Assembly (NCBI GenBank): GCA_903813345.2
Contig: CAIIXF020000003.1
Location: 26,427,248-26,491,247 of the forward strand
From: Owenia fusiformis
Taxonomy: Eukaryota; Annelida; Polychaeta; Sabellida; Oweniidae
Direction of reading: 5' to 3'
Length of the DNA stretch: 64,000 bases
The position numbers and the translations under genes were made by a program. Below the pieces are notes generated by a model. The model did no database searches. It was not told the DNA's origin and saw nothing but the letters and a program-made list of their open reading frames with translations. Positions 12,001 to 48,456 of the stretch are shown here, one piece after another; within the stretch, counting starts at the first letter, position 1; each line of letters opens with the position of its first letter.

Positions 12001-15000
12001 TATATTTAAATTGAAACTGTTAGATCTCATATGTGTTGAATTTCCATACATTTTTACAAATCATAAAAATAATGACACAAAGAAATAGTTTTCTACCCAT
12101 TGTTAAAGTTTGAACCTATTAAATACAATGACATCAACGATTTTTTTTATATATCGCTAAAGTTTGAACCAAACCAACTGCATTAATTCTAATCCAGCGC
12201 TGGCGCCTACAGATCTTGACCCATCCAGAGAATATATGTACAATCGGACGTACAGCTTGCCTCCAAATTTCCAACATCTGTCTGCTAGTAAAGCACAATT
12301 TGTGGAAGTCATTCATACATATGCAAAGTTTGAGGATAAACTTGGTGACGTCGATTACTTTATGATCGCGGATCATTGTGCTCAAGGTAAGGTTTTCTCG
12401 TATGACTAACCAAGATACCGTCATCCGTACCCCATGCAAGATATTGCCATCTTTCATCCTAAAAAGTAACACGTGCAAGATGAGTGTACTTGTGACATCA
12501 CAGGGTAAATAAACAACAACATGGCAACGATACAAGACCTTTTCTATAAAATATAGTAGCTGACGCTTGGAGGGCATAGTTGGATTTCATAGCTTTCTAT
12601 CCTTTGTACATTTCTTTCATTCCTCAGCAAAACAAAGATGATCTGCATTGTGGAGTATCATGTTTTGTGCGATGGTCACAACAATATGAGACTTATATTT
12701 AGAAATGTGGCCAATATTACATCCATTATTGACTCCGTATCCACCTGGATGTGTTTCCATTACTTTTCATTTGTTTGTTTAATTGTCTTCGTGTTTTATT
12801 CTAGCTATTATAGTTATCATGTTACGAAATACAATTCTATCAAACTCTGTATGTTTGTCATACATTGCGTGTCATTTTTTAATTTTGTCCATATTAGCTT
12901 TTCCTGTGTGTTTTGTGGTTCTTGAATGATGTCATTTAGACATTCCGATTAAAACATGTATCGTCCTACTCACCTAAGAATGATTGTGCTTTAAGTCAGT
13001 ATATGTCTGCTTGCAACAGATGAGGATAAAGATCAGTCTTCTGGTAAAGGGAAGGGCAAGTCATCAGATGAGGATAAAGGCGATTCTTCTGGAAAAGGGA
13101 AGGGCAAGTCGTCGGATGAGGATAAAGGCGAGTCTTCTGGTAAAGGGAAGGGCAAGTCATCGGATGAGGATAAAGGCGAATCTTCTGGTAAAGGGAAGGG
13201 CAAGTCATCGGATGAGGATAAAGGCGAATCTTCTGGAAAAGGGAAGGGCAACTCGTCGGATGAGTATAAAGGCGAGTCTTCTGGTCAAGCTTGTTCATCA
13301 TGCTTGTTGTTTTTCCTCCCAATATTATACAAAAGAATTGTGTAGGCATTCATGTATAGGAAGTGTTGTGATTTCGACTTTTGTCAAAAACGTATCATAT
13401 TTCATCATAGCCTACAATTTGTATCAGTGCGTGAGCCACAGCACTTTACATCCTTTAATATGAGCTGATTACGTTTCATTATTACTAATTTTAAATAATG
13501 CTTCAAATGCATTGCTGCAGCTGATATTGTGCTTATTTCTATCATTACCATGTTTAAACGTAAACCATGATACCATGGTTTACCATGGTCTATCATGATC
13601 GGCAATAAAATCATCATCAACTCTGACCATGGTGGCAATGATGTTTTTTGGTCAATTTTTTACCATGGTATACCATGGTATATCATGTTATACCATGTTT
13701 CATGGTGTTTCATGTTCAAAGTCAACCATCAAATACCATGGTATTATCATGGTTTTCATTACCATGTTCCTGACCATCATTTACCATGGTATTACCATGG
13801 TATATCATGGTTGATTGCATTTCATGGCATTTCATTGTAAGATGTGACAATCAAATACCATGGTATTTCATTGCCATGTTCCTGACCATCATTTACCATG
13901 GTATTACCATTGTATATCATGGTTGATGGTATTTCATTGTACGATGTAACAATCAAATGCCATGGTTGTACCATGATATTTTATTGTTATGTACCTAACC
14001 ATCATTTACCATGGTATTACCATGGTATATCATGGTTGATGACATTTCATTGCATTTCATTGTACCGTGTGACAATCAATTACCATGGTCATACCATGTC
14101 ATTTCATTGCCAAAATCATAACTCTCATTTATCATGGTTTTATCATTGTATTTCATGGTTGGTGGTATTTCATGGCATTTTATTGTCAAACCTGACCATC
14201 AAATACTATGGTCATACCATGGTATTTCATTGCCATAATCATAACTATCATTTATCACGGCATATCATTGCACTTCGTGGTTGATTGTATTTCATAGCAT
14301 TTCATTGTCAAACCTGACCATCAGATACCATGATTATACCATGGTATTTCATTGCCAAAAGAACTCTAGGAGAGTGTCGAAGTCTAAAATTGGTCAGAGT
14401 TGAAATGGATCATGAAATACAATGAAATGCCACGTTTCACCATGAAATGCAATGAAATACAATGATTGATCATGATATGCAATGAAATGCAATGGTCTCT
14501 CTTGCAATGCAGTGAAATACAATGAAAGACCATGTTCAAAAGTATTTTTTACATGAAATATCTTTATTAATAAATGTTAATTAGATAACCAAATTATTAT
14601 AATTAGTGATTCTGATATTCATCAAAATCACAACTTGTTCCTTTATTTAATAAATTAATTTCTATTATGAATAATTAAGTTAATAACCCTAGAAACAAAT
14701 TTTTTTTGTTAAACAAATTTGCTTTACTTTTTTTTGACTGTTGATGGTAAAATAGGAGATCAACTCAATATTTCGTAAGTCCAACCTCCAGTCTTCGATT
14801 AAACATCTTGACTGTACTTCATTGCATTTGATGGTTTGCAACCATGAAATACTGCAAAATAGCAGTATTTTTAAGTGCAAAATTTTAAGTATAGTGACCA
14901 TGGTATACAATGGTAGATCATGATAATTGGATGGCTCCATTGCATATCATGGTTGAATGTCTAGACCATGATATCACTGCACTTGATGGTATTAGACCAT

Positions 15001-18000: not shown

Positions 18001-21000
18001 TGTACTTCGTATTGGTTCGTGTTCGAATCATTTTAAACCGTATCCAGGGACATCTTTTAACTCCAATTGGAACCTAACTCACGTTGCAGATGTTAAAATT
18101 TTCTCCGTTTGGGAGTTTTTAAGGAGAGACAATATTATCCCCATACGTTGATATAACTCATTGCAAAATAAAGATATCCATGAATGAAAATGGAAAATGA
18201 TGAAACATTGCAAAGTTTAATCTTTTGAAATTGATATTGCTATCATCGCTTTTACAAAAAAAACTTTGGTATTCTCTTAGAGACGATCCACATTGATGAA
18301 ATTGCCGAGTACATTGGGAAATGTGAAGGGAAGAAGAATATGGCATATGATAATTCAAAGGGCAACCGAACTGTAGGTAAGTCTGAAACACAAATTTGTT
18401 TTTGTGTTTTTCCATAGTGTTTAGCTAATGGGCACATAATGGGGCGTTAAAGGAAAGTATGTTTATGTAGTCGATTGGGAATGCTGTTTCGGATTAGTAA
18501 ATTATTTAGATAATATACAGAAATTGATTCTGGAATCTGGAACTTGCATTAAGGGTAAAGTAATACATTTGGGAAAATCCTTTCTATTTGTGCCTCGCTT
18601 TAATTCTTCTATATTGAAACCACCAATCGAATAGATGAGGTACCTGTCTATCTATAGGGATCGGGTTCAACATGGAACGTCCTGGCGCACGGAAAGTTTG
18701 GGAAACGATACTACCCGGGGTTGACTTTGACAAAGTTTACAACAAGCAACTTGCACTAAGAGATGATCAAATCAAAACATTATTCAAGGTACTGAAAGAT
18801 AAGCCATATGATATCCCTTTACATATTTTTGCTATTTCGTTCTTTAAAAGTTATATGCATTTCAATTCAGTTTATTTCAGTAGGTCATCATTGCTCCATG
18901 TCATTGTAATAAGGTAATACGCTTTTAAAGTTGTATGCATAGATTTGACAATTATATTTCAGGCAGACCTAGGTGCACAATTTATCCCTGTTGTTAGACA
19001 CTTGATACCAGGATTTGAAGTGATGTGTGCTGAAGTTCAAGCTGCAATTGTGGACGCCCTGTATCGAGGACATTTGAGCCCAGCCATGCAAGCTCTGATT
19101 AAAAAACGGAAGTGGAAAGAAGCTGCCAAAGAATACACCAACCAAGGAGACTACAGAAATGCTCTGAAAGGAAGAAGGGGATTCAAGGACATAAAGATCC
19201 GTATGGATGAAAACAAAGCTATCTTTGAGAAGCTAGGTACATGCGTACTCATTTCGGCCAATCTTTGGTTGGTACCGTACATGGTTGGGATATATTCAAC
19301 ATACGATGTCATATAATCCGTGCTAATGCTAATTGTTTCAACTTATTTGCCTCATTATATCAAGAGCATATAAATAAAATTGAAATAGAAATAACCTGTT
19401 TTCTGACTTCTGCATTAAAAGGTTTTGGAATATAGTAAACTTTTTATCGATGGCTCGATGAGCTTCAGCAATATAAGACTCATGTACGCTTCATGGAGCA
19501 ACTCCAAAAGAAGTTATAGATGACTTTGTCAACTAGATGCATGTATATGCACAAATGTACATACCATTGAAATTATTGGGGGAGAAAATATTTATTTGAC
19601 ACCCTGCAGAAAGCTATTTGAAATTGTCACTTCTTATTGAACACCCTGTATACCTACATCCATGTGCATCACATTCATAAACTCTATTCGGGTAAAAACC
19701 ACAGTGTATGAAATATTTTATATATGTTATAGTTGGAGGCGGAACGGAATGCTCTGGAAATACTATCAACACAACAATATCTCCATCGACTTCTGAACCC
19801 AAAACAGGTGATCCTTTGCAAAGTTGCTGCTTTGGTCACAGTCCATCCTTTTTGTATAAACACGTGATAAACTTCCTATTAACGATTTGAATGAAGAATT
19901 AAAAATAACCTTTATTTCATTATGAAATAATGTAAATAAATGCTGCTTTAAGGGTTAGTAATGCTATCTATTCTGCAGGAATCTGTCCAAGTGTTCCCTC
20001 TGGAACTATGGGGATTTAAGGGTTAGTAATGCTATCTATTCTGCAGGAAACTGTTCAAGTGCTCCCTCTGGAACTATGGGGATTTAAGGGTTAGTAATGC
20101 TATCTATTTTGCAGGAATCTGTCCAAGTGTTCCCTCTGGAACTATGGGGATTTAAGGGTTAGTAATGCTATATATTCTGTAGGAATCTGTCCAAGTGTTC
20201 CCTCTGGAACTATGGGGATTTAAGGGTTAGTAATGCTATCTATTCTGCAGGAATCTGTCCAAGTGTTCCCTCTGGAACTGTGGGGATTTAAGGGTTAGTA
20301 ATGCTATCTATTCTGTAGGAATCTGTCCAAGTGTTCCCTCTGGAACTGTGGGGATTTAAGGGTTAGTAATGCTATCTATTCTGCAGGAAACTGTCCAAGT
20401 GTTCCCTCTAGAACTGTGGGGATTTAAGGGTAAGTAATGCAATCCATTCTGCAGGAAACTGTCCAAGTGTTCCCTCTGGAACTATGGGGATTTAAGAATT
20501 AGTAATGCTATCTATTCTGCAGGAATCTGTCCAAGTGTTCCCTCTGGAACTATGGGGATTTAAGGGTTAGTAATGCTATCTATTCTGCAGGAAACTGTCC
20601 AAGTGTTCCCTCTGGAACTGTGGGGATTTAGGGGTTAGTAATGCAATCCATTCTGCAGGAAACTGTCCAAGTGTTCCCTCTGGAACTGTGGGGATTTAAG
20701 GGTTAGTAATGCTATCTATTCTGCAGGAAACTGTCCAAGTGTTCCCTCTGGAACTGTGGGGATTTAAGGGTTAGTAATGCTGTCCATTCTGCAGGAAACT
20801 GTCCAAGTGTTCCCTCTGGAACTGTGGGGATTTAAGGGTTAGTAATGCTATCTATTCTGCAGGAAACTGTCCAAGTGCTCCCTCTGGAACTATGGGGATT
20901 TAAGAGTTAGTAATGCTATCCATTCTGCAGGAAACTGTCCAAGTGTTCCCTCTGGAACTGGGGGGATTTAAGAGTTAGTAATGCTATCTATTCTGCAGGA

Positions 21001-24000
21001 AACTGTCCAAGTGTTCCCTCTGGAACTGTGGGGATTTAAGGGTTAGTAATGCTATCTTTTCTGCAGGAAACTGTCCAAGTGCTCCCTCTGGAACTGTGGG
21101 GATTTAAGGGTTAGTAATGCTATCTATTCTGCAGGAAACTGTCCAAGTGTTCCCTCTGGAACTGTGGGGATTTAAGGGTTAGTAATGCTATCTATTCTGC
21201 AGGAAACTGTCCAAGTGCTCCCTCTGGAACTATGGGGATTTAAGGGTTAGTAATGCTATCTATTCTGCAGGAAACTGTCCAAGTGCTCACTCTGGAACTG
21301 TGGGGATTTAAGGGTTAGTAATGCTATCTATTCTGCAGGAAACTGTCCAAGTGCTCCCTCTGGAACTGTGGGGATTTAAGGGTTAGTAATGCTATCTATT
21401 CTGCAGGAAACTGTCCAAGTGTTCCCTCTGGATCTGTGGGGATTTAAGGGTTAGTAATGCTATCTATTCTGCAGGAAACTGTCCAAGTGTTCCCTCTGGA
21501 ACTATGGGGATTTAAGGGTTAGTAATGCTATCTATTCTGTAGGAATCTGTCCAAGTGTTCCCTCTGGAACTATGGGGATTTAAGGGTTAGTAATGCTATC
21601 TATTCTGCAGGAAACTGTCCAAGTGTTCCCCCTGGAACTGTGGGGATTTAAGGGTTAGTAATGCTATCTATTCTGTAGGAATCTGTCCAAGTGTTCCCTC
21701 TGGAACTATGGGGATTTAAGGGTTAGTAATGCTATCTAATCTGCAGGAATCTGTCCAAGTGTTCCCTCTGGAACTATGGGGATTTAAGGGTTAGTAATGC
21801 TATCTATTCTGCAGGAAACTGTCCAAGTGTTCCCTCTGGAACTATGGGGATTTAAGAGTTAGTAATGCTATCTATTCTGCAGGAATCTGTCCAAGTGTTC
21901 CCTCTGGAACTGTGGGGATTTAAGGGTTAGTAATGCTATCTATTCTGTAGGAATCTGTCCAAGTGTTCCCTCTGGAACTGTGGGGATTTAAGAGTTAGTA
22001 ATGCTATCTATTCTGCAGGAATCTGTCCAAGTGTTCCCTCTGGAACTGTGGGGATTTAAGGGTTAGTAATGCTATCTATTCTGCAGGAAACTGTCCAAGT
22101 GTTCCCTCTGGAACTATGGGGATTTAAGGGTTAGTAATGCTATCTATTCTGTAGGAATCTGTCCAAGTGTTCCCTCTGGAACTGTGGGGATTTAAGAGTT
22201 AGTAATGCTATATATTCTGCAGGAAACTGTCCAAGTGTTCCCTCTGGAACTGTGGGGATTTAAGGGTTAGTAATGCTATCTATTCTGTAGGAATCTGTCC
22301 AAGTGTTCCCTCTGGAACTATGGGGATTTAAGAGTTAGTAATGCTATCTATTCTGCAGGAAACTGTCCAAGTGTTCCCTCTGGAACTGTGGGGATCTGTG
22401 TCAACTCCTGTTTGGACGATTATAGTTGTCCTGGTGTCCAGAAATGTTGCTCTAATGGTTGTGGTCATATCTGCAAGGATCCATTTGCAGAATCAGGTAA
22501 AACCAACAATAAACCATTGGTTTTATGCGGGCAATTCATATTTAGTTGATGATGCTATTGAAATATCTTACAATTTGAGATTTATTTACCAAGTTCATTG
22601 TCGCCAACCCCACAAATATTTCGGAGATAACCTTATTTCCGAGCTTAAATGGGCCCTCATTTACACCTTGATTACAAAATATAAAACATATGCAGATATT
22701 CAAAGCTCCTTGAATTTAAAGTTTCAGTTTATTTAGAACCGCTCCTGTTGCCATCTTCCTGATCCACGAGTTGCACATTTAAATGAGCAAGGAGGTGTGG
22801 TGCAAGATTTGTTAAACATTTTAGTTTATTTTTTAGAAACCACTACACCAACAGGGACAACTGAACAAACAGGTACTGTAATAATATTTATTTAAATGTC
22901 TCATACTTAATTGCTATTAGATTACAAAATAGACAACACTTGGGAGGGACCAAGGCCAGGAGAGGACTCATAGACTAATAATGCGTTGTAATATTGAACT
23001 TTATTTTGGCCAAACATTACATTTTAAAATGAATGTCACTTTTCTAATTTGAGAGTTGAACCATGATACTTGTCAAATTGATGTAACTTTGAATAACCTT
23101 TAAAATGATATATGACTCATACTATGATGGCACTGGTATGTGTCTGCCTAAGGGGGGGGGGGCATACATTCGGGACACCCTGTATATCTGGCAAATGTGC
23201 ATTTGTTTATGTTCTTGATGCTGTACAGTAGAGAAAAATGGAGTTGAGATTGAACCATGGGTATTTTGGCAACACTTGTAGTTTTGCAAATTAATTGCTT
23301 CAATGATAACCTGTTGAAACTTATGAAATCCTACCTAGACAATAGAAGAGTATGCACACGCCTTAATGGATCTTTATCCGAATTCTCTGAAGAAAATTTT
23401 ATAAACTCTGGTGTGCCTCAAGGCTCTATTCTAGGCCCCATCCTATTTCTGCTATTTATAAATGATCTCCCAGAGGTCATCCAATCAAAATGTTATATTT
23501 ATGCTGACGATACTTCTATACATGTCCCCGTTCACAAGTTTGAAAATGTTTTAACATCAAATACATTATTACAACATGATCTAGACAATGTCTATGACTG
23601 GTCAAGGGTTTGGGGGCTTAACTTTAAGCCCACGAAAACCAAAGAGATAATTTTTTCCAAATCAATTCAAAATGTAAGAAACTTTCCTATTTTGACCTTG
23701 AGCAACAGAATAATTGAAAGAGTAAATTATCATAAACATCTTGGAGTTATCTTAGATAACCACCTTGACTTCAAAGAACATATAGCCCAGTTAAAAGTCA
23801 AAATTGATAAAATGCTAAATCCACTTACAGCATTGAAAAATAAAATTTCATCCAAACACCTTGAAAGAATGTACTTATCGTTCATTTTGCCAAAATTAGA
23901 ATTCGGATCAATCTTTTATAATTGTTCACCACATTATGCCCTAAATACCTTGGATAGGTTACACTACAGAGCTGCCTTGTTAGTCTCCGGGGCCATTAAG

Positions 24001-25493
24001 GGCTCCTCTGAAATCAAAGTCTTAAATTCACTTAACTGGAAGACACTAAATCAGAGAAGAGAAGAAAAAATGGCAACTCTAATGTATAAGGTATCCAAAA
24101 ACAAGACTCCTAGTTACGTACAATCTATATACAATGAACTGAAAAATCCAAGTACAGAGCGTGTACTTCGTGCCCAGCACGAATATAATATTCCAGCAAA
24201 ATCTTCAATGAAATTTACAAACTCTCCTGCCATAGCACCAATAAGAATATGGAAAATGATTTCACCTGAAGTTAAACGCAGCCCCTCAATATCAGCCTTC
24301 AAGTCAAGGTATAAGAAAACCAAATATAACCCAAACCCTAGGTCTGTGTTGACAACAAAATTAAACTTAAATCGATCTATTGAAATTAAACTAAACCGTT
24401 TAAGAGCAGACCTAGCACTTAAATCAGACTTTTTTAGGCACAATTTCAACAACTATCCAGACCCAAGTTGCCCTTGTGGACATGCCCAGCAAACCAAGTC
24501 CCATTTATTACTTTACTGCCCTCTATCAACTGGAACAAGGTCAATCTTTACCCAAAAACTACAAGAGCTGCAAAATTTTAACTTTAGAGAATTTGCCAGT
24601 CTAATAGTGTAGATAAAGTCCACACCATACTTTTTGGTGATCATAAGTTCTCAGATAAATGTAATGCTGATATTATGAACCTTACGGCAAATTTTGTTGA
24701 TTCTATCATTTAGCATTAGCCTCAACATTTCATCACCATCATCATCACTATTGTTATCATCATCTCAACTGTGGCCACTGAGACTCTTATAAACAATACA
24801 TTTACAATACATGTCTGAAACCATTTATATCAACTTTATTTTGCTACTTTTATTTAATAGGGAGGCCAACAATGTAATTTTACCTCGGCCTTCCTAGTAT
24901 GTTAAATATTGTTATATAAAATTATGCAAAGAAATAAAACTTAACCTTAAAAAAAAATAAAAAAAATAAAAAATAAATAAAAAAAAATAAAAAAAATTAA
25001 TTGCCTTGATGCTCATAAAAGTCCCACTGGGAACTTGCCACATATATGTATGATGTATCACATGTGATTTAAAATAAGATATTAATTGATTTAAAACAAA
25101 TACAACGCAAGAGAAAAACAAGAATTAAAGATATAAGTTCATTTTTTTTATTGGATATGGTGTTTTAAAATCCATGCTTACATGTTGCTATGGGTTTTTC
25201 CTCATTCAGGTATTTCCTATACGAATATCACAGTAGATGCTACCTTGTGTTACTGCCTTGGTGGACAATGTCAGCATACGTCAAAAGGTTGCCAAGGCGG
25301 CAATTTCTATAGTGATCAATGTATTGGCCATGACGACGTGAAATGCTGTGTCAAGAACACATCAGAGGACAACCAATGTACGGCACAACAAGGCGGGTGT
25401 AAGTTGGTCTCTGATGGCTGTTTCTGTGGAGAGTTCACACCAGGACTTTGTGGAGGCCCATCGAATAGACAGTGCTGCTTGGTGACCCCGTAG
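1..25493 (+). CDS. Secreted mosaic protein, 3' part: CUB - lipase-like - GH24-like lysozyme - WAP
   Basis: Exons read by hand: 1-17 (partial), 572-738, 1161-1320, 2790-2879, 5528-5808, 6377-6599, 6839-6951, 11776-11977, 12213-12386, 13020-13283, 16020-16135, 16494-16588, 17585-17871, 18281-18376, 18658-18788, 18963-19236, 19733-19807, 22359-22496, 22837-22872, 25210-25493 (stop TAG). Every junction has AG/GT borders and matching phase, giving about 1,074 residues in the window. Approximate order by residue: linker 1-5, CUB 6-114, Ser/Thr linker 115-144, unassigned beta-rich module 145-312, lipase-like 313-634 with a repeat insert at 476-563, unassigned 635-730, lysozyme-like 731-897, linker, WAP 923-968, linker, Cys-rich end 981-1074. 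Many modules sit between phase-1 introns, typical of exon shuffling. The start codon and signal peptide are upstream of the window. One long gene is my inference from frame continuity; two or three genes with unseen internal ends remain possible. A host-defence or digestive role is inferred from the domains only. Confidence 0.75.
572..1320 (+). other. CUB domain, two exons (572-738, 1161-1320)
   Basis: The first exon opens with CGGTF, then TSPNYPRNYPNN and a Cys, and ends at YDYLR. The second continues VYDG, then GRSIPV and FSGWSLNY. These are the usual CUB landmarks: the N-terminal Cys-Gly-Gly, the SPNYP motif, the Y-D-x-L-x-V-Y-D-G stretch that often binds calcium, and the final FxGW strand. 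The intron splits the domain at phase 0 between LR and VYDG, while the outer borders are phase 1, so the pair is an insertable module. CUB domains are extracellular beta-sandwiches that bind protein or carbohydrate. The donor after the first exon (GTATTT) is weak, but the join reconstitutes the conserved motif exactly. Confidence 0.9.
1799..2041 (-). mobile_element. Possible transposase helix-turn-helix fragment
   Basis: An 80-codon minus-strand ORF sits in the intron after the CUB domain. Its first half (ILREDYGARRILNEFPSRN) resembles the N-terminal DNA-binding helices of some Tc1/mariner-like transposases, which carry an 'LREEKGWGARRI..EFP' type pattern. No catalytic domain, terminal repeat or target duplication is visible nearby. 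It may be a fragment or a chance ORF. Confidence 0.3.
2790..2879 (+). other. Ser/Thr-rich linker exon
   Basis: This 90-nt phase 1-1 exon encodes a Thr/Ser/Pro-rich spacer ending TTEADG, with an N-x-T and an N-x-S sequon. Positions 1-17 of the window are the end of a near-identical linker exon, so linker plus CUB was duplicated as a unit. Such spacers are usually O-glycosylated and separate folded extracellular domains. Confidence 0.8.
2863..3466 (+). repeat. Second copy of a duplicated linker-intron-CUB segment, truncated
   Basis: About 600 bp here repeats positions 1-605 at high identity: linker-exon end, intron, and the first ~45 bases of the CUB exon. The offset is about 2.86 kb. In this copy the CUB acceptor is altered (a TACG sequence replaces the CAG) and homology stops inside the exon near 3466. 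The second CUB exon is therefore dead, and the linker exon at 2790-2879 joins the exon at 5528 in frame instead. This is the footprint of tandem CUB-module amplification, and more copies may lie upstream of the window. Confidence 0.85.
4186..5255 (+). mobile_element. Mariner-like DNA transposon remnant with long inverted repeats
   Basis: The ends are inverted repeats about 200 bp long, opening CCAGGGGTGATTAACAAATA on the left and CAAGGGGTGATCAACAAATA on the right strand, and TA flanks both ends (4184-4185, 5256-5257). Between them the plus strand, near 4700-4960, reads as the N-terminal DNA-binding region of a mariner transposase: a YEMLNKSFG helix, a WYR motif, then APKTTRTAEMLKEVEQLV. A frame break and a stop interrupt it, and no DDE catalytic region remains. 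A TA target and a paired-domain-like HTH are standard for Tc1/mariner; arms this long are less usual. It lies in an intron of the mosaic gene. Confidence 0.8.
5528..6599 (+). other. Unassigned beta-rich module (LQIWRP...IGWTY), two exons
   Basis: The exons at 5528-5808 and 6377-6599 join at phase 0 and are bounded by phase-1 introns, so they form one 168-residue module. The sequence alternates hydrophobic and polar residues in a beta-sandwich style. Landmarks are VLLQIWRP, YALIWEKEVTV, RDKIGWTYID and ISFDY. The pattern 'LQxWRP ... xGDxIGW ... IxYDY' recurs, as I recall, in uncharacterised secreted invertebrate proteins, but I cannot name a family. The only candidate sequon is NETN. There is no cysteine in the conserved core. 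It could be a carbohydrate-binding fold. Confidence 0.7.
7157..7270 (+). repeat. Degenerate ~20-bp tandem repeat
   Basis: Imperfect repeats of a unit like ACTCGAATCATAATATGCA run for about 110 bp in the intron after 6951. The copies differ by several substitutions. No coding role is seen. Confidence 0.5.
8651..9467. repeat. Nested TIR unit, copy 1 (~817 bp)
   Basis: It begins CTAACCCTACTATCACACCA and ends with the inverted form (TGGTGTGATAGGGGGGTTAG). Internally a related segment (GCTATCACACCAAACAAG) recurs near 9047, so the unit is itself built from repeats. It is rich in short GAACG/CGTTC words on both strands. No ORF of note. Confidence 0.7.
9478..10282. repeat. Nested TIR unit, copy 2 (~805 bp)
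   Basis: This is a head-to-tail second copy of the preceding unit, highly similar throughout, with the same internal repeat near 9862 and the same inverted terminus. The two copies are about 10 bp apart, which suggests a recent tandem duplication or successive insertion. The larger element's right arm follows at about 10,625. Confidence 0.7.
11268..11320. mobile_element. 53-bp TIR-only MITE
   Basis: An almost perfect hairpin starts CGAACTCCCATGCAGTGTCT and ends GCACGGGAGTTCG. It is flanked by GTTAACGCT and GTTAACGCC, a 9-bp target duplication with one mismatch. Its two halves equal the two ends of the 423-bp element at 57220-57642, so this is the same family reduced to its termini. A 9-bp duplication is compatible with a Mutator-like transposase, but no autonomous copy is present. 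Confidence 0.8.
11500..11690. repeat. Dispersed repeat, partner of 39477-39670
   Basis: This stretch is the reverse complement of intronic sequence at about 39477-39670 in UTP4. Shared landmarks are TGTGTCTGATTCCAGCC, GGACTTTTCACATTGGATTT and GACTTGCCAACTTGACCCTT. No coding capacity. It is probably a MITE or SINE family whose ends I could not define. Confidence 0.6.
13020..13283 (+). repeat. 48-bp tandem-repeat exon encoding DEDKGESSGKGKGKSS units
   Basis: A 48-bp unit is repeated 5.5 times and reads in one frame as a 16-residue unit DEDKGESSGKGKGKSS with few changes. The preceding exon ends CAA-G, and the sequence after the AG at 13018-13019 completes GAT (Asp), so the frame is kept. A GT at 13284 gives a 264-nt (88-codon) phase 1-1 cassette that joins exon 16020 in frame. 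That donor (GTCAAG) is weak. Read-through would instead add a short Cys- and Leu-rich tail and stop at 13343-13345. The product is a highly charged, probably disordered loop just before the catalytic-His block of the lipase-like domain. Skipping it also keeps the frame, so alternative splicing is plausible. Confidence 0.7.
13545..15060. repeat. CCATGG-rich degenerate satellite with opposing halves
   Basis: From 13545 to about 14345 the sequence is a degenerate array of TACCATGGTAT and GTATTTCATGG words, with roughly 15-20 CCATGG palindromes. From about 14400 to 14535 the words appear inverted (ATGAAATACAATGAAATGC). A TCAACTCTGACCA motif near 13617 is matched by TGGTCAGAGTTGA near 14391, so the block is an imperfect inverted repeat. 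Scattered words continue at 14885-15060. Long translations through it are artefacts of the repeat. Confidence 0.75.
15064..15260. repeat. Dispersed 'ATGGCCGCCATTTTGAA' type repeat
   Basis: It contains AAATGGCTGCCATTTT, AATACCAGTGGACGAATTTG and CAAAATGGCCGCCGTTA. Related words occur at 15770-15800 and in UTP4 introns at 33486-33960 and 36995-37860. This looks like a non-autonomous family present in both large genes. Its borders are unclear. Confidence 0.5.
17100..17250. repeat. AT-rich TTAATTAGCT palindromic repeat
   Basis: Dense, overlapping TTAATTAGCTTAATTAGC and TAGCTAATTA words form a low-complexity palindromic patch of about 150 bp in an intron. No coding or splice signal of note. Confidence 0.5.
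17585..17871 (+). other. Unassigned segment between lipase-like and lysozyme-like domains
   Basis: A single 287-nt exon (phase 2 in, phase 1 out) encodes about 96 residues: FRAVTFSITANFSTPDCAP, FLRGFSSIAFYSTT, IIVKYGHRGDYETF, then a Ser/Thr/Ala-rich stretch ending FAVTATVRN. It holds two cysteines and one N-x-S sequon. The alternating pattern suggests beta-strands and perhaps a helix. It could be a SEA-like or lipase-accessory fold, but nothing diagnostic is visible. The in-frame splice to 18281 is clear. Confidence 0.6.
18281..19236 (+). other. Phage-type (GH24-like) lysozyme domain
   Basis: Exons 18281-18376, 18658-18788 and 18963-19236 join in frame to give about 167 residues. The start IAEYIGKCEGKK, then AYDNSKGNRTVGIGFNM, matches the T4-lysozyme active-site region E-(14)-T-x-G-x-G. 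With the Glu as position 0, the Thr falls at +15 as in T4 lysozyme (E11, T26). The T4 Asp20 position (+9) is Asn here, with Asp at +8. GVDFDKVYNKQLAL, DDQIKTLF, DL, the AEVQAAIVDALYRG helix and EYTNQGDYRNALKGRRG follow the family order. Phage-type lysozymes have, to my memory, been reported in bivalves. Muralytic activity is plausible but the shifted acid needs testing. Flanking introns are phase 1. Confidence 0.8.
19733..19807 (+). other. Ser/Thr-rich linker exon after the lysozyme-like domain
   Basis: A 75-nt phase 1-1 exon encodes GGGTECSGNTINTTISPST and SEPKT, a spacer with two N-x-T sequons. It ends ACA-G before GTGATC, in frame with the WAP exon at 22359. Confidence 0.7.
19947..22391 (+). 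repeat. 68-bp minisatellite duplicating the WAP exon's splice acceptor, 36 acceptors
   Basis: The unit is TTAAGGGTTAGTAATGCTAT, then CTATTCTGCAG, then GAAACTGTCCAAGTGTTCCC, then TCTGGAACTGTGGGGAT. The first CAG ends at 19978 and the real WAP acceptor at 22358. The distance is 2,380 bp, exactly 35 x 68, so there is no net length change across the array. Each unit therefore carries a pyrimidine-poor acceptor ending CAG or TAG, the first 38 bases of the WAP exon, and a donor-like GG|GTTAGT. A decoy exon from acceptor to donor would be 43 nt with an in-frame TAA. Variants among copies are few: GAAACTG/GAATCTG, TGTTC/TGCTC, CTATG/CTGTG. Confidence 0.95.
22359..22496 (+). other. WAP (four-disulfide core) domain exon
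   Basis: A 138-nt phase 1-1 exon encodes NCPSVPSGTVGICVNSC, then LDDYSCPGVQKCCSNGCG and HICKDP. The eight cysteines follow the WAP order, including the KCC and the C-G-x-x-C end. WAP domains are usually protease inhibitors or antibacterial peptides; the P1 region cannot be judged by eye. The exon is preceded directly by the 68-bp array and followed by a 36-nt linker exon at 22837-22872 (TTTPTGTTEQT). Confidence 0.9.
23223..25004 (+). mobile_element. 5'-truncated LINE (CR1/Jockey-group reverse transcriptase)
   Basis: The ORF at 23257-24612 encodes the second half of a reverse transcriptase: SGVPQGSILGPILFLLFIND, then YADDTSIH, then a thumb/C-terminal region with a CPCG...H...C knuckle. The palm start and endonuclease are missing, so it is a 5'-truncated insert. 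An A-rich tail at 24949-25000 and a CTTGATGCT target duplication (23214-23222 and 25005-25013) mark the ends. The ORF is uninterrupted over its ~450 codons, so the insertion is fairly young. It sits, in sense, in the last intron of the mosaic gene. The clade is assigned by motif style only. Confidence 0.85.
25210..25493 (+). other. C-terminal twin cysteine-rich module and stop
   Basis: The last exon enters at phase 1 and ends TAG. It encodes two related Cys-rich repeats: CYCLGGQC...GCQGGNFYSDQC...KCC, and QCTAQQGGC...GCFCGEFTPGLCGG...QCC. The 'GG.C....C.G..(F/Y)...C.G....(K/Q)CC' pattern resembles, from memory, small Cys-rich modules attached to peptidoglycan- or chitin-active enzymes in fungi and invertebrates. 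That would fit a cell-wall-targeting role next to the lysozyme-like domain, but I cannot confirm the family. Confidence 0.75.
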
Positions 25494-39700: not shown

Positions 39701-42700
39701 TGTCCGCTGTGACGGAGCGTGCTATTTTGCATAGAAACACTAAGAAACCCAGACAATTTATTTTTTTACTCATATGTTTCGTTTTTCCAAAGAAAATTTC
39801 TTACTCCATGCAATGGGTATATCATTTGCGGGTAACTTTAACTTTTGTTTGAAGTCCAACAACGCTAAGAGTAAAAGCTACTGAAAACGGCGCCACCTAT
39901 CATACTCCAAAATGTACCATTTCTTTTATTTCTTTTTAATGGTACAATATAGTGATACGATAATATTTACATGTTTTTTCAGCATAACTCTGAAGGTATT
40001 AATGATATCTTGATGTATTGGGTATTTTTAATATTTTTTATAAAAAATAATGTTTACATTTTTTGTCAGCTGTGACGGAGCAGCTTTAACTGTGAACTAC
40101 GTTAAGAATTTAAGATGCAAATTATATCTTTTAAAAGTACCCTTAGAAGAGAGAACGTCACAAATCACTTTCCTAAATTATGACAAGTAGTCTCTTGGAG
40201 ATCTGGGGTAATGTAAATCTGAGATATAAAACGACAACGGAGGTTTGTACTGAAATCAACATGAATCAACATGGTGTAAACTCAACATAATATTTCTAAT
40301 ACGTTTTCGCCAAGACGTCTTGAAATGTCACGTGTAGTGTAAATAGGGCTAATATGAATTTATTCGAAATAGCGCACAGACATCCTGCATTCCGACAGAT
40401 GTATAACCTTTTACCACATAATATTACTGTACATAAGATGATCCCAATACAGATTTAATTTGTATTTATTTGAAATTCATGAAATTCATCGTTTTGCATA
40501 GACTAAAATTAAAAAAAAAAGTCTTGGTAAACGTGCTGCATTGTAAAACCTGTCTCAATGAATATCTTTCTCTAGTGAACACCTCTTCTTATCAAATATT
40601 CCTCTGACTTCTGTATGAAATGCCTGTATGAAGTGAACATCATCTACCAACTGGGAACACATTTTTGGGCTCCATATGTGTTCAATGTACACATGTTTTA
40701 CTGTAGTTACATCAGATAGCCATAACTCTTATTCAAATAAAGAACGATCTTAAAATCAAATTTTGCATTTTCGTATTTCAAGATACACTCAACTTACCTT
40801 TTGGAACGACTAAAGAGGGTAGAACAATCCACATTCCATACCATCATATGTATTTAGCCTCATCTTCAGCAAATCATTTTACTTCAAATAATCAAGTCAC
40901 CGTAAAAAATGACCATGTCAGGCCGATGGATCCACAGAAGGCACTACGAAAGGGAAATACCCTATACTTAAATGAAGTTGACTATCATTTTCATGAGTTA
41001 CCATGCATAAGTTGGATTGCAGTACAAACTGAGAAAAGATGCTTAAAGACTAAAGAGTGGTTGTATATACATCTCAGAATTTGAATTGTGTACTTTTATT
41101 ACGTTTCATTTTTCAGAATACTTTACGAGATTTGACACGCTCGCTCCTCTAACGTGTAGTTGTAAAGAGATATATTATAAATCTAAAATCTTATGTATTT
41201 CAGATTTGAAACTGCTCCGTCACAGCGGACAAAAAATCTAATTATTATTTTTTATCAAAAAAATTAAAAATACCCAATACATAAAAATCTCATTAATACC
41301 TTCAGAGTTATGCTGAAAACATATGTAAATATTATCGTGTCGCTACATTGTACCATTAAAAAGAAATAAAAGAAATGGTACATTTTGGAGTATGATACTC
41401 CGACGCCGTTTTCAATAGCTTTTACTCTTAGCGTTGTTGGACTTCAAACAGAAGTTAAAGTTACCCGCAAATGATATATTCATTGCATGGAGTCAGTAAT
41501 TTTCTTTGATATAGTAAAACATATGAGTAAAAAAATAAATTGTGTGGATTTCCTAGTGTTTCTATGCAAAATAACACGCTCCGTCACAGCGGACAAATTT
41601 TTCGATACCTGCCTGTGTGAATAGGTTTACAAATATGGTACTGCTGATTAATTGTTCAACAATGTCCAAAAATTTGTCACTGATGGACTATGCATTACAG
41701 GGTTTGCTTTGCTGTACATTGATTTATTTAAATGAGGAACGGATTTAACTGTCACAGTTTTTGGAGTTCTGATTTGTCCTCAAATAACCCGTACTTTTGA
41801 TCAAAATTCATGAAGAAAGTGAATTATTATTGTCACTGTTTTGGAGTTCTGATTTGTCCTCAAATAATGTTTATATTATATTAATGTTTATCTTCTTTAT
41901 ACAGTCAAACACAGTTGACAGGAATAATTTTGCTCTGTAAAATAGGACTGATTTATGAGGAACAAGAACAAAAAGAATCAAGATTTTAGTACCGCAGGAT
42001 TCGTGAATACATCAGGAATCTGGATATATAATTATTTTTGTGATATTGCAAGTGTCTAAATGACATTTGATGGAAATTATTTCAGATAAATTGAGGAAAA
42101 TATTTCAGACTTACACAAAAATACAGTATTGAACTGCATTGAGGTAATTAAGTTTTTAGCACTTAAAGAACTAGAAGGTGTTAATGTGCATATTAGCTGC
42201 CTATGACCATGGCTAGCCCTCAACCCTCAGAAGTTGGAACTGATATTGGCTTGCTTATTGGATCACCTGATTCTGTTTATAAAGAAAGTCAGGGGTCACC
42301 TGAATCAGCTGATATTCTGACCTTAAACCTGACTATCAACAACTCTCCTGAACAGTCTCAGTGTTCTCAGGGGGCATCTCAAGCTCGTGCTTTGACTCCA
42401 AGAGAACCAACCTGCTCAACTAATCTTGCTTCACCTTCACAGAATGACACTCAAAGGACTGTCCATAAACGCAGAAGTAAACGTATAGGCAAAAACACAT
42501 TGCCTTTGGATCTTAATGGTACTTTCAACTCAGACTCAGGAGCGAAGCGTAAACGTCCTGTTCGAGCGTGTAGGACGGCCCCTAAGACCCCAAAGCTTCC
42601 TAAGTCCAATAAATTACATACTCGCTGTACTTCCAAATATGACTCTGATATAAACACTCGCAACCTAGTAGCTATCATACAAGACCTTAAGGTGGCAGTT

Positions 42701-45700
42701 GATAACACCACAGCCAAGGTTGATGCTTTGCAGAGCACAGTGAGTGCAATAAACACTACGAATCTCGATCTTGTAAAACAACTATCTGCAAAAACTGCAA
42801 CAAGCAATGAACTTGAAAAAGAGTGTAAAAGCCTTCGTGAAACCCTTAACTGGCATAAAATGAACAAATCCCAAAATGAACCTGTCAAACCCCACCCCAA
42901 AAATGCTTCAAAAACGCTGGTGATTGGAAGTTCTATCGTTCGTGACCTGGATCAAGATAAACTCAATGACGTTGAAGTTATTTCTATTGGTGGGGCAGAC
43001 ATTGATATGGTCCATAAGCGACTCACTAATTTAGACACCAAGTACCAAAAGGCTATTCTTCAAGTAGGAAGTAAAGACTGTGCAAAATCATCAGATAAGG
43101 CCTCGATCAAAGCCAAATACCAATTAGCTATTAAGGGTGCCAAGAACATTGCTACCACTGTTGCCGTTTCTAGCATTTGCCCTCGAACCGACAAAGAATT
43201 GGCTCAGAATACCGCCGATGCCCTTAATGCTGAGCTACAGATCCTATGCGAGGAGGAAAAGATCGAGTTCATCAACAATGACACAAATGGCTTTAAACTA
43301 CAGAGTGGAGAAATAAATGAAGGTTATCTCTGGTCTGACGGTCTTCACTTATCAAAGCCAGGATCTAATAAATTGGCACGTAACATGGGACTCGGCTGTA
43401 AGACACGAGATGTTACAAAAAACAACCGTGCCCGTCAACAGCAACGTAACTTGCAACGCTCATCACAGGCTATAGCCCAACACAAACCCACCAGCAACGA
43501 TATTCATGTACCCTCTTTGCAGCAACAACAGCCCCCTGTACGTGACCAACGTGCCCAGCCCCCCTCCCATGATATTTCACGTAACATTTCACCAGCCTGT
43601 TTTAAATGCGGAGAAAGGAGTCACCTTGCCAATTCTTGTTGGCACACAAATTCCATACGCTGCCACTCCTGTTCTAATTTTGGACATAAGAAAGCAAGGT
43701 GCCCATTCACACAAAACTTAAACCACCCTAATTTTGTTAATGGACAGTTTGGACAGCGCTGGCCACAATAGGCTTTGGGCAATGTTTCTGCCTTCGTCCC
43801 ATCTGACTCATTTACAATATCTCCGCCCACTCCTGAACCTGTCATTCACCAACGTAATCGCAAAACTCGTCGGGGAAGAAGAAAGATCTATACCAGCTCC
43901 ACTCAAATGACCTTTGCTTTTAATAATGTATGCCACTTTGGCCTTGCTAAACAGCATGAGCTCAACCAGACTTTATCTAAATGTAGCTATGATATTGTTG
44001 CTATTGCTGAAACTTTTTTTGATGACACTAACACGCTTTCAATTTTAAATGATAACTATGTGTGGATCCCTAAAAACAGAGTTGGTAAAAAAGGTGGTGG
44101 TGTAGGATTCTTTGTTAAGAAAGGAATAGTAATCCTTGACAATGATTTACTTCACTCGAGTTGTGATGACCTAGAAAGATTATGGATTCGTGTTAAAATT
44201 AATAATAATGTTCTTAATCTTGGAGTTACTTACTTTCCCGTAGATGGAAAAAATTCAATTTTAAGCGAAAAGTTAATGGATGAGTTGATCTCTAATGTTG
44301 CAGAGGTTGAATCAGATGACACATATACTTTATTGATGGGTGATTTTAATGGGAAGGCAACCAAATTTTGTAAAGGGCAAAGCAGCCAAAATGGTAAACT
44401 TATCGATCTTTTCATTGATGTCACAGGCATGCACATGTTAAACTCTATTAACTGTCAGGGTGAGATAACATGGTCAAGGGGAACTCAACATTCATCCATT
44501 GACTATTGCTTTGGTAACCATAATTTTATGAAGGTGTACCAAAATATGATTATTGATGAAACCCACGAAGAGGCAAGTTTAGGTAGTGACCACTCTTTTA
44601 TGATTATAAATGCTATACTGCCCTCTCAGTCAGGTAACCTTAAGACCAATGTTCCCCCTGATAATAAAGATGAAGATACTGTAATTTGGAACATCAATGA
44701 TAACACAGATTGGGATTGCTTCAGAAACGCCATTAATACTGAATTTAGTTCCTGGGACATTTCCAAGTGCAGTAACATTGAAGATGCATGGTCCTCATTC
44801 AAAGAGAATATAATGAAGGCTGCTCATATAGGGGTTGGGATTAAGAGGGTACCAACGAACCATCGTTCATTTTGGGATAAAGAAATTAAATTATTAATAA
44901 ATAATCGTAAAGAAGCATCACGCTTCTACCGATATTGGAGTCGTTCAAAGTCAGCTGACCCTGACATACTTCGAGAAATTTGGAACTTATACCTCGAACG
45001 TAAAAAACAAGTTCAGTTGAAAATAGTTGAATCACATGTAAAGAATCACATCAAAGTTTTAACTAGTAATGCTAGGTCACTTTCTAAATGTTCAAGATCC
45101 TACTGGAAAAAATTGAAAATGTTCAATGAAAATAATGGATATCCCATTCAAATCCAAGACCCTAACAACAAAGATATGATCTTAACTGACCCCAAAGCCA
45201 TATCTGAGGCTCTACATTTGTATTGGGAAAGGGTGGGGCGTAATAATCGTAATCCAAAGTTTACCTCCAATAATCTATCAGATAAGATAGATTCTTTATT
45301 AAAGGAAACTAACTATGATAATAATGCCTTAAACAGCTTCTGCTTCACATATGCTGAACTTGTGCAATGTCTCAGAAAGCTTAATAATGGCAAGAAGTGT
45401 GGTACGGATAATATACCTAATGAATTTCTTAAATACGGGGGGAAATACAATGTTTTCTTCCCTTTTTGACCTTTTTAACAAAGTAAAATCCCTAGAAGTT
45501 ACGCCTACAGAATGGAAAGAAGGATTACTTGTTCCTTTATTCAAACGAGGTTTAAACATTGACTTAAATAATTACAGAGGTCTCACCATGAATTCCAATG
45601 TTTATAAAATTTATACTAGTCTACTTGATAGTAAAATTAAACTTAACTCAGAGTCATGTGACCTTCTTGGTGATTCCCAGGGAGCTTTCAGGGAAAATCG

Positions 45701-48456
45701 TAGACTTGAAAACCACATTTTTGCTCTAAAAGGTTTATGCTCACTTCGTAAATCCTCTAAGAAAAATACATTTTTATCATTTTTGGATATTTCTAAGGCC
45801 TTTGATGTTATTGACCGCAATATGTTATTTGTGAAACTTTGGGAAATGGGTATTCAAGGAAAAATATGGCGGTTGCTCCATGAGGCTTACAGGGATGTTT
45901 GTAATAAAGTTATTTTTGGTAATTTTACCTCTCCATGGTATTCTAGTACTTCTGGATTAAAGCAGGGCTGTTGTTTATCCCCATCCCTATTCTCACTAGT
46001 CATGACTGACTTAGTTGATAGACTGAATAAAGAAAACCTTGGTATTCCATTTAATAACATTAAAGTCCCAACATTACTTTTTGCTGATGACATTGTTCTT
46101 ATGGCCGAAAGTGAGAGCCAACTGAATCATATGCTAAAAATTGCAGATCAGTTTGGTTCTTGCTGGGGATTCAAATTCGACCCCAATAAATCTAAAGTAA
46201 TGGTTATTGGCAAGCGAATAGATAAAAATAAAACTTGGGTATTAGGTGACCTTGAAATCAAAGAAGTTGATACTTACAAATATCTTGGCATCCATCTAAA
46301 TAGGCAATTAAGAGATAACTACCACGTGAATGTTGTTTTAAAAGAAAAGGATAAGAAGTTAAGAAATCTAGTTGCATCAACCCTAACTTAGCATATTAAC
46401 TATAATAGAATATCATTTGGTAATACATTATACTACTCCCAGTACCTCCCTGCTTTGTTGCATGGATGTGGTGTTCTAATTCTTGACAAGACATCTGAAA
46501 AGACCCTTTCTTCAATGCAATATAAATTGGCCAAATCAATTTTTCAACTTAAATGTAACCCTGCCAAAGCAGCAATGTTAGGTGACCTTGGCTGGAGAAG
46601 CATTATTAACATTATTCAGAAAAGACAAATTGATTATTTTCTATATCTTAAGTTCTCCATGAGGAACGGCCTACATAAGGCTATTTTTGATCAACTGTTT
46701 GAAAATTTCAAGGGAAGAGTAAAAACATGTTGGCCATATTTTGAAAACATACAAGACATTTTAATTGAACGTGGCCTTGATGATGTTGTGTTTAGAGATG
46801 ACAATGAATGGTATGATTCTTTTTTGACCATATCCTCCCAACAACACAAAAGTAATTTTCTATCTGAATGTTCCTCGAAATCTTCACTAGAATTTTATGA
46901 ATCAATCAAACAAACCCCATTTCTGGAGAATTACCTTACTTCAAGTAATGATTTTGTTGGACAGAGATTGAAGTTCAAAGCCAGAACTGGGTGTTTAGGT
47001 ATTGGAACTGACCTCAAAAGAAGAAAATGTGATGATGGTTTTTGCAAACTTTGTTCCCTTCATCCAATTGATGATTTAACACACAGATTTTTTACATGTA
47101 GTCACAACCAACGTGAAAGAATTGATTTTTACAACAGAATTAAAACCTCATGCTCCCCTGATGTATTTAATATGTTCTTAACGCTTCCGTTAAATGAAAA
47201 ATTAAAGTGGTGCCTAGGAGATGTTGTTTTTAGTATTTGGGGCAAAGACCAAGGATTCTTGTTTGACAAGTGTGTCAAACAATTTTTAGTGACTATTAAT
47301 AACGATATTTTAAACTCATAACATATGTACAATTTAACATATTTATTTTATCTATCTATCTGTATTGTATTGTTTTTTATGAATATGTATTTGTTTTATG
47401 TACTGCCGCACTGGAATTTTCCATTGTGCCACTGATTAAAAAGTGTTTGGCAAATAAATAAATAAATAAATAAATAAATATTATAGTTAATAATAACTTT
47501 TATTCAAAATTCATGAAGAAAATGAATTATTTTAATGTATGATCAAAAGTAAATTTTTTTTTGTCTCGTGTAAGAGTGATGTCAGAAAGGCATTGGCTTA
47601 TGTTTATTGGTTACAAATAATGGTCACCTTTTCCTGGAACCAGTCATCCTTGATAGACCAAATCTCCAGACTGCCATCAGACCTTAAATAAAATTGCAAA
47701 AAATGCATTTTGTTTATTTGTTTATTAGGAGTGATTCATAAAATGCTAATACACAATCACAATTCATGACTCAATGAATTGTAGGTGACTCACTCCACTC
47801 ATGTTAGCCTTTAAATTTGAGCTATTGCCCTCATTGCAAGTTCTGATGCAAGACATCCATGCTTAAAATCAATCCACAATCTTAAATCCTTTATATAATA
47901 ATAACCAAGGTGGACAGAGGTGACGCGCCGCAGCTATATATATGCGTAGCTGTTTAAAACGAGGCTGCAATGTGGAATAGGCACAAAATGGCTGCTTTAG
48001 AAACCTTTGAATTGGCGGTAAGTTTATTTATAAGTTATTTACCCCGGTTTGAGTATCCTATAGTTATTATAGCATACACAATTCGATGGAGAACTTTACA
48101 AAGTATGTCTGTGTGAAGCTTCTTGAAATTTAGTCAATCGGGGAAATATATTCTGGAAACAGAAAGTCAATTATTTGCGGAAATTTGACTTGCCAACAAT
48201 ACAGTGGAAGTGGCTCAGATAATCAGAGTTGCCTCCATTTTGGTATGTAACGTGTTGCAGCCTCATTTTGAACAGCTACACTTGGCTGCGTTGCATCACC
48301 CCCGTCAACCTTGATAATGTAACTTAATAACCATTTTGATAACAAGACTTACCTGCCAATTGCTATCCTGTCTTGTTGACTATTATATGCTAGACATTGG
48401 ATGGACTTGGGCTGGTAGTCAAAGAAACGTATGTGGTGAACCTTGAAGTCTCCCAT
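30758..48456 (-). CDS. UTP4: UTP4 / cirhin, U3 snoRNP small-subunit processome WD40 protein
   Basis: Sixteen exons, 5' to 3': 48456-48353, 47682-47628, 39126-39007, 38545-38477, 38004-37920, 36925-36757, 36333-36035, 35732-35653, 35234-35135, 34878-34718, 34240-34051, 33402-33296, 32767-32672, 31832-31650, 31326-31228, 30874-30758. All junctions are GT-AG and in frame; the CDS is 2,034 nt, 677 residues (human cirhin 686). The start MGDFKVHHIRFFDYQPKSIQ and the end LPPALKEKKFGT mirror human MGEFKVHRVRFFNY and LPPPIKKKKFGT. WD40 blades are recognisable throughout (DGSLEIW, GGIDNIRIWNT, GDSRGKTSFWN, DNLEIWKLG, THISHVAF-like KISHVAFNP). UTP4 belongs to the t-UTP/UtpA subcomplex needed for pre-18S rRNA processing in the nucleolus. 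The long intron between exons 2 and 3 holds a LINE and a foldback element. Confidence 0.95.
31351..31522. repeat. Small hairpin MITE in a UTP4 intron
   Basis: It starts GGGGTTTCACTAGAATTTCT and ends near TGATACCCTG. Internally AACAGGTGATTTT is followed by AATCGCCTGTTGCCTGCTGC, a strong hairpin. The same sequence, in the same orientation, is in the CHTF8 intron at 59718-59869. Confidence 0.65.
33095..33271. repeat. Near-perfect 88-bp tandem duplication
   Basis: AAAGTAACAATGGATATTAT starts both copies, and they differ only by one A in a homopolymer. It lies about 25 bp downstream (in UTP4 sense) of exon 33402-33296, so it is inside the following intron and close to its donor. It looks recent. 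Confidence 0.85.
33486..33960. repeat. Dispersed 'GGCCGCCATTTTTCAAGATGGC' family copy in UTP4 intron
   Basis: It contains GGCCGCCATTTTTCAAGATG, then GAGCGGCCATTTTGAAAAAA, and GGACGGACAGACGGAGG. It is related to sequence at 15064-15260 and 36995-37860. Its sense ORFs overlap the neighbouring exon but are not conserved. Confidence 0.5.
36995..37860. repeat. Composite of dispersed 'gene-desert' repeats in a UTP4 intron
   Basis: Several degenerate units share GCAGCCATTTTGAATTTC, AAATGGTGGCCATTTTGAAT, GGACACACAAACGGACAGAC and CACCGAACAAAACATATTTT-like words. They resemble the units at 15064 and 33486. No exon falls inside; exons 37920-38004 and 36757-36925 flank it. Confidence 0.45.
38035..38150. 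repeat. Short degenerate tandem repeat (CAACTCAACCCAAGT)
   Basis: Repeats of CAAGTCAACTCAACCC lie between two copies of GAGTCATCTCATATATGTCA. It is about 115 bp long, in the UTP4 intron upstream of exon 38004-37920. Confidence 0.6.
39233..39388. mobile_element. ~156-bp MITE (ATTTAAGCCCAAGACTCA ends)
   Basis: Terminal inverted repeats open ATTTAAGCCCAAGACTCAGT on the left and the equivalent, with one difference, on the right. It sits about 100 bp upstream (UTP4 sense) of exon 39126-39007. Confidence 0.75.
39477..39670. repeat. Dispersed repeat, partner of 11500-11690
   Basis: It begins GGTCAAGTTGGCAAGTCATC and includes GGCTGGAATCAGACACACCT. It is in inverted orientation to the copy in the mosaic gene and directly abuts the CACAGG foldback element. 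Confidence 0.6.
39679..41617. mobile_element. 1.94-kb foldback DNA element, CACAGG ends, 5-bp target duplication
   Basis: The arms are about 400 bp (39679-40085 and 41210-41617) and open CACAGGCTGGTATCGAAAAA / CACAGGCAGGTATCGAAAAA. TGAAT flanks both sides (39674-39678, 41618-41622). A GCTGTGACGGAGC motif occurs at the outer end and again at the inner end of each arm, so each arm is bracketed by it. The ~1.1-kb centre has no recognisable transposase. A 5-bp duplication and a CAC start are compatible with Transib- or Chapaev-like enzymes, but I cannot decide. Confidence 0.8.
42203..43771 (+). CDS. LINE ORF1: SGNH-like domain plus two CCHC zinc knuckles
   Basis: Intact, 522 residues. A basic, Ser/Pro-rich N-terminus (KRRSKRIGK) is followed by a probable coiled coil (about residues 155-215, heptad-like IQDLKVAVDNTTAKVDAL). 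Then comes an SGNH/GDSL-like fold: block I TLVIGSSIVRDL near 238 and block V WSDGLHLSKPGSNKLARN near 390, where D-x-x-H supplies the usual Asp/His. Near the C-terminus are CFKCGERSHLANSC and CHSCSNFGHKKARC, both C-x2-C-x4-H-x4-C. LINE ORF1 proteins bind the element's RNA; SGNH-type ORF1s are known from CR1/L2-like elements. Both knuckles and an SGNH-like domain in one ORF1 is a less common combination. Confidence 0.85.
   Translation: MTMASPQPSEVGTDIGLLIGSPDSVYKESQGSPESADILTLNLTINNSPEQSQCSQGASQARALTPREPTCSTNLASPSQNDTQRTVHKRRSKRIGKNTLPLDLNGTFNSDSGAKRKRPVRACRTAPKTPKLPKSNKLHTRCTSKYDSDINTRNLVAIIQDLKVAVDNTTAKVDALQSTVSAINTTNLDLVKQLSAKTATSNELEKECKSLRETLNWHKMNKSQNEPVKPHPKNASKTLVIGSSIVRDLDQDKLNDVEVISIGGADIDMVHKRLTNLDTKYQKAILQVGSKDCAKSSDKASIKAKYQLAIKGAKNIATTVAVSSICPRTDKELAQNTADALNAELQILCEEEKIEFINNDTNGFKLQSGEINEGYLWSDGLHLSKPGSNKLARNMGLGCKTRDVTKNNRARQQQRNLQRSSQAIAQHKPTSNDIHVPSLQQQQPPVRDQRAQPPSHDISRNISPACFKCGERSHLANSCWHTNSIRCHSCSNFGHKKARCPFTQNLNHPNFVNGQFGQRWPQ
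43775..47321 (+). pseudogene. LINE ORF2: APE endonuclease and reverse transcriptase, two breaks
   Basis: The N-terminus is an APE-like endonuclease (IAETFF, LMGDFNGK, SIDYCF, GSDHSFMI). The RT follows (IPNEFLKYGG, SFLDISKAFDVIDR, SGLKQGCCLSPSLF, LLFADDIVLMAE, YKYLGIHLN), then a C-terminal CKLC...H...C knuckle near 47045-47100. One frameshift lies in a six-G run at 45437-45442, and one in-frame TAG lies at 46389-46391 in the same frame as the downstream part. ORF1 and ORF2 are only a few bases apart. The catalytic FADD is present. Both breaks are of the kind caused by a single event. Confidence 0.85.
47906..48313. mobile_element. ~408-bp MITE in UTP4 intron 1
   Basis: The inverted ends open CAAGGTGGACAGAGGTGACG and CAAGGTTGACGGGGGTGATG, and the similarity runs about 65 bp through a GAGGCTGCAA motif. 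Flanks ATAATAAC and ATAATGTAAC hint at a duplicated AT-rich target of about 8 bp. It lies 40 bp from exon 1 of UTP4. Confidence 0.75.

Follow-up and report, generated by a model that had tools for sequence, protein, structure and literature searches.

Minisatellites that lie over intron/exon boundaries, referred to as mirages, have been described in amphioxus, in Adh3, the globin genes BflGb6 and BflGb9, and troponin C. These involve tandem duplication across an intron/exon boundary and contain many repeats with AG/GT signals that evolve in concert. Reverse transcription PCR (RT-PCR) suggests that regular splicing is undisturbed, and the authors note that the copies could act as cryptic sites. 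The mirages of Adh and troponin C are said to yield no aberrant mRNAs in a source that likens the repeats of PGBD5 to mirages (PMC3902484). Mirages have also been proposed as a route to new introns. Here, a 68-bp minisatellite of 36 copies is described that spans the boundary between the 3′ end of an intron and an exon encoding a WAP domain in a lysozyme-like/WAP gene of the annelid Owenia fusiformis. The array lies in a 64,000-nucleotide stretch of contig CAIIXF020000003.1 (assembly GCA_903813345.2, forward-strand positions 26,427,248 to 26,491,247). This stretch is hereafter called the window, and positions refer to it.

The Owenia array has a boundary-spanning unit, AG/GT signals in its repeats, and units that evolve in concert, as the amphioxus mirages do. 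Like the BflGb6 mirage, it duplicates the 3′ end of an intron together with the 5′ part of the following exon. The two differ in host, the published mirages being from amphioxus, and in size: BflGb6 has six or three units of 150–160 bp and Adh3 has units of 10–72 bp, whereas the Owenia array comprises 36 units of 68 bp. In addition, the boundaries of the BflGb6 cluster are excluded from homogenization, while the functional boundary unit in Owenia is not set apart from the rest. What is new is the occurrence in an annelid, the copy number of 36, and the fact that the functional unit falls within the variation of the array.

Related arrangements occur in humans. The 37-bp repeats of factor VII IVS7 constitute a variable number tandem repeat (VNTR) over an exon/intron boundary in which the donor side is duplicated. 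The 31-bp VNTR of CBS (c.1444_1467+7) also lies over an exon/intron boundary, as its coordinates show (PMC2630376), and likewise duplicates the donor side. CBS 844ins68 resembles the Owenia array in being a 68-bp duplication of an intron/exon junction that creates two sites, of which the distal one is used; it differs in being one extra copy, polymorphic, with no array. The source refers to splice donor sites, although the junction is that of intron 7 and exon 8. The equal length of 68 bp is a coincidence. Variable internal tandem repeats at the exon–intron boundaries of human segmental duplicates are alike in location and may create novel introns (PMC2812944); unlike these, the Owenia array gives no sign that any unit has turned into an exon. 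Among the matches listed in the open-licence literature, judged by title and the start of the abstract, no similar array was found outside amphioxus and vertebrates, annelids included.

Array anatomy

Tandem Repeats Finder (TRF), run on the window, reports one array at this place (19947–22395, period 68, 36.0 copies, 0% indels, score 4408). A cut in fixed register yields 36 units, which either match the consensus or depart from it at up to 4 positions. The unit joins 32 bp of intron end, TTTAAGGGTTAGTAATGCTATCTATTCTGCAG, to 36 bp of exon start, GAAACTGTCCAAGTGTTCCCTCTGGAACTGTGGGGA, and is repeated head to tail across the boundary such that all 36 AG/GAA acceptors are found at an exact spacing of 68 bp, or 35 steps. 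Only the last unit continues into the WAP exon. Such an array cannot be a product of chance. The first-pass annotation had proposed 35 exact 68-bp steps that multiply the acceptor ahead of a single functional WAP exon located after a lysozyme-like part. Its coordinates and number of steps are confirmed, and both the duplicated acceptors and the gene anatomy are borne out. Its account of the unit needs small corrections: the intron portion, given as about 30 bp, is 32 bp, and the exon portion, given as 38 bp, is 36–37 bp.

Compared with the 498-Mb assembly (525 contigs), the array sequence matched one place among the best-scored candidates. Elsewhere in the window, outside the array, no degenerate copies of the unit rose above shuffled sequence (best score 23 versus a shuffled maximum of 27). 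No stop-to-stop frame of at least 55 aa lies wholly within the array on either strand, and a coding minisatellite was rejected, as all 35 decoys (i.e., units 1–35) meet a stop in the next intron part. Three two-unit stretches, one on the minus strand, were folded, and none showed RNA structure above that of shuffled sequence (z = 0.15, 0.28, and 0.97).

Table 1. Features of the lysozyme-like/WAP gene and its boundary array (window coordinates)
Feature	Position	Strand	Remarks
Lysozyme-like exons (three)	18281–18376, 18658–18788, 18963–19236	+	Similarity to Owenia protein P0001; sub-threshold PF00959
Upstream linker exon	19733–19807	+	75 nt, phase 1-1, donor CAG/GTGATC
68-bp × 36 minisatellite over intron 3′ end/exon boundary (mirage)	19947–22394	+	Units 1–35, decoys; unit 36 (22327–22394), functional boundary
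Unit 8	20423–20490	+	Strongest decoy donor, AGG/GTAAGT, 10.3 bits
Intron part of last unit	22327–22358	+	Carries TATTCTGCAG, presumed to be the authentic acceptor; intron ends with base 22358
WAP exon	22359–22496	+	138 nt, phase 1-1, donor CAG/GTAAAA; opens with the 36-nt exon part of unit 36
Downstream linker exon	22837–22872	+	36 nt, phase 1-1
Last exon	25210–25493	+	Cys-rich repeats, stop at end; resembles P0001 C-terminus by eye

Host gene

The seven exons of Table 1 form one open frame of 343 residues with a terminal stop, AG/GT borders, and matching phases. The WAP domain is secure (Pfam, 46.9 bits, E = 3.4e-12). Because its exon is 138 nt long and in phase 1 at both ends, it could be skipped without loss of frame. 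The lysozyme-like part is 54% identical to Owenia protein P0001 over 59% of the query, while its match to PF00959 (Phage_lysozyme) reaches 13.9 bits, under the Pfam cut-off of 22.3. By comparison with T4 lysozyme, the catalytic glutamate is retained (KCEGKK, in exon 18281–18376), and the region of the aspartate, YDNSKG, carries an asparagine where the second acid would be. Enzymatic activity is uncertain. The intron after the second linker exon harbors an open reading frame (ORF) at 23254–24609 that resembles, by eye, the reverse transcriptase of a long interspersed nuclear element (LINE).

Unit variation and homogenization

The mean pairwise identity of the units is 95.5%. Of the 36 units, 25 are distinct, and no block of at least two consecutive units recurs exactly at another place in the array. 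Variation is confined to 21 columns, of which 12 fall among the 32 intron positions and 9 among the 36 exon positions. All nine variant types in the exon part (five transitions and four transversions) alter an amino acid; if changes were spread evenly, an outcome with none silent would have P = 0.034, a marginal value from one of several tests and not corrected. There is therefore no indication that the decoys are maintained as coding sequence. Alternative states include N2I in 14 units, V11M in 15, and V6A in 6.

The functional unit 36 differs from the others at 2.63 positions on average (rank 9 of 36), much like an ordinary unit, and 7 of the 35 decoys match the real exon start identically over its 36 bp. 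The coding start of the exon is thus located inside the homogenized array, and the first 12 codons of the WAP exon are tied to 35 non-coding copies. The exact unit length, 68 bp and not a multiple of 3, needs no special cause, since homogenized minisatellites keep their length. A higher-order repeat was considered and dropped: similarity is raised between units at a lag of two (P = 0.0074), which is the best of the 12 lags tested.

Decoy sites and their consequences

AG is present in 36 of 36 units and GT in 35. The donor-like GGGTTAGT assigned to every unit by the first-pass annotation occurs in 28 of the 36; six units carry GAGTTAGT instead, unit 8 carries GGGTAAGT, and in unit 9 the GT is missing. 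The decoy exon of 43 nt that the same annotation described is correct by counting on the sequence if the donor-like GT is used, and its in-frame TAA is found in 35 of 35 decoys. Between adjacent decoys, the gap from GT to AG amounts to 25 nt (counted on the unit), which is too short for an intron. TAGTAAT, which is taken here to be a branch-like motif, is found in 35 of the 36 units; its second-last A lies 17 nt upstream of where the AG ends.

Entry at any of units 1–35 leads to G-N/I-CPS-V/A-PSGT-V/M-GI, with a few single-unit variants, and then to a TAA in the next intron part. Every decoy frame consequently ends after 13 codons, and unit 36 alone reads through into the WAP domain. A cluster of mutually exclusive or alternative exons was rejected on this basis, as well as because 43 nt is not a multiple of 3.

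Splice sites were scored with a simple donor/acceptor matrix. On this scale, the real acceptor stands at the 99.4th percentile of the AGs of the window outside the array and exceeds the five other acceptors of the gene that were scored. The six units with GAGTTAGT have a donor score of 2.0.

Relatives of the WAP exon

The WAP exon, extended by the sequence flanking it downstream, served as the query for a DNA-level search of the genome; the best candidates were scored, and more may exist. At least 38 matches were obtained: the query's own place, 35 fragments of the array, and two sites on contig C11 (L032 and L013). At each of the C11 sites, a WAP exon follows a single acceptor, read as phase 1 like that of the array gene; L032 reads GICPKVPPGTSGMC. 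TRF gives no row in L032, and in L013 its one hit is a 9-bp repeat that lies apart from the exon. With single-copy acceptors in both relatives, this gene is the only one of the three to have the array.

Interpretation of the array

The array is probably a near-neutral, homogenized mirage that is read as intron, with the last acceptor being the one predicted to be used; it is most likely spliced out without effect. In this scenario, a 68-bp segment straddling the boundary in the lysozyme-like/WAP gene of O. fusiformis would have been tandemly duplicated, giving birth to the array, which would then have expanded to 36 copies and been homogenized by unequal exchange or conversion. Units 1–35 would be removed from the pre-mRNA as intron. 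The last acceptor probably wins through exon definition because it alone opens onto a full-length 138-nt exon with a donor of its own, whereas the decoys offer 43 nt separated by 25-nt gaps. A slip to a decoy acceptor would bring a stop after 13 codons and probably degradation of the mRNA; the array would thus be nearly neutral, at the cost of a slight mis-splicing load. This reading is favored by the anatomy and homogeneity of the array, the open seven-exon gene with WAP in frame, the single acceptors of the two related WAP exons, and the all-nonsilent exon-part variants of the decoys.

Several observations weigh against this reading. The real acceptor, at 10.2 bits, is equalled by most decoys (range 5.6–12.5), and a typical decoy donor scores 6.3 bits versus 6.5 for the donor of the WAP exon. 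The distance from the upstream linker donor is 171 nt to the first decoy acceptor and 2551 nt to the real one, such that the first decoy is nearer by 2380 nt. The AG is conserved in all 36 units, although there are too few changes to test for selection on the splice columns. Candidates of about 137–436 and 189–600 aa included no annotated Owenia protein with the WAP exon, so that use of the gene is presumptive. In addition, an intronic minisatellite of C. elegans is reported to be over-represented near alternatively spliced regions (PMC4039745). Given that most decoy sites match the real ones in strength, their silence, if they are silent, would be owed to context and not to weakness.

The same observations on site strength could be taken to mean that the array is a working regulator of splicing, in which the real acceptor is poisoned by the 35 decoys or has to compete with them, and copy number sets the amount of WAP-containing protein. 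The first-pass annotation likewise proposed that the array could tune inclusion of the WAP end or truncate the protein after the lysozyme-like part. This is considered unlikely. The many decoys that score like real sites, the near-consensus donor of one decoy, the retained AGs, the stop that follows decoy use, and the frame-preserving skip of the WAP exon would all suit a regulator, as would the C. elegans enrichment, an intronic VNTR said to affect ABCA7 splicing (PMC5954066), and the novel introns that repeats at human exon–intron boundaries may create (PMC2812944). However, RT-PCR suggests that similar mirages leave regular splicing undisturbed, the distal copy is the one used in CBS 844ins68, the three folded stretches show no structure beyond shuffled sequence, and two related WAP exons manage without an array; no direct support for regulation was found in this analysis. 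It is quite unlikely that the gene is decaying or unused and the array merely tolerated junk. The absence of an annotated protein with the WAP exon and the reverse-transcriptase-like ORF (by eye) in the intron downstream of the second linker exon would fit decay, but the seven exons remain open with AG/GT borders and matching phases, and the WAP domain retains a strong Pfam score. For exons 18281–25493, the array itself may have upset gene prediction.

An exchange of amino acid variants has also been considered, in which the array would serve as a reservoir and unequal exchange or conversion would move decoy states into the last unit under diversifying selection. The stretch altered would be the one that separates cysteines one and two of the WAP domain and adjoins its reactive loop. 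The nine nonsilent variant types out of nine, the ordinary standing of unit 36, and the relative L032, which has the same isoleucine at position 2, are consistent with this proposal, yet it is judged very unlikely. Least credible of all is a copy number that is an artefact of assembly, with a shorter or longer real array having been expanded or collapsed. Tandem arrays are hard to assemble, and an amphioxus mirage appears to have been aberrantly assembled in the draft genome (PMC3087553). Nevertheless, the 25 distinct units among 36 and the lack of any exactly repeated multi-unit run disfavor a copied assembly block. The published Owenia assembly, which may differ from the version used here, was built on PacBio reads and optical maps and is stated as 505.8 Mb with 12 chromosome-scale scaffolds (PMC9977687).

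The 35 near-perfect acceptor copies of the array, in their natural place, provide a ready test of acceptor choice by context as opposed to strength or nearness. The locus further suggests that boundary minisatellites are not a peculiarity of lancelets and that, through them, the beginning of a coding exon can become linked to non-coding repeat turnover.

Other repeats and elements nearby

A scan for other boundary-spanning arrays covered the 50 kb on each side of the window and gave 11 TRF rows with a period of at least 20 and at least 2.5 copies (periods 22–147). In the three places viewed (L003, L004, and the 36-bp array of L007), no exon border was clear within the arrays. At L003 (1909–2563), a 51-bp minisatellite of 12.9 copies lies between two minus-strand frames that resemble, by eye, parts of a seven-transmembrane receptor gene, and an exon border is not clearly touched.

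Within the window, a 48-bp array of 5.6 copies (13019–13289) encodes a 16-codon repeat, DEDKGESSGKGKGKSS. Its first base is the final base of a CAACAG that resembles an acceptor, and the array has the look of a coding minisatellite placed where an exon starts. Overlapping arrays of about 112–123 bp (with one row of 225) occupy 13659–14360 and are rich in the palindrome CCATGG. Besides the ORF in the intron of the host gene, ORFs resembling LINE reverse transcriptases and their partners by eye are located at 42197–47318 and 52211–55198. Of these, the ORF at 42197–43768 shares 98% identity with an O. fusiformis protein along its entire length.

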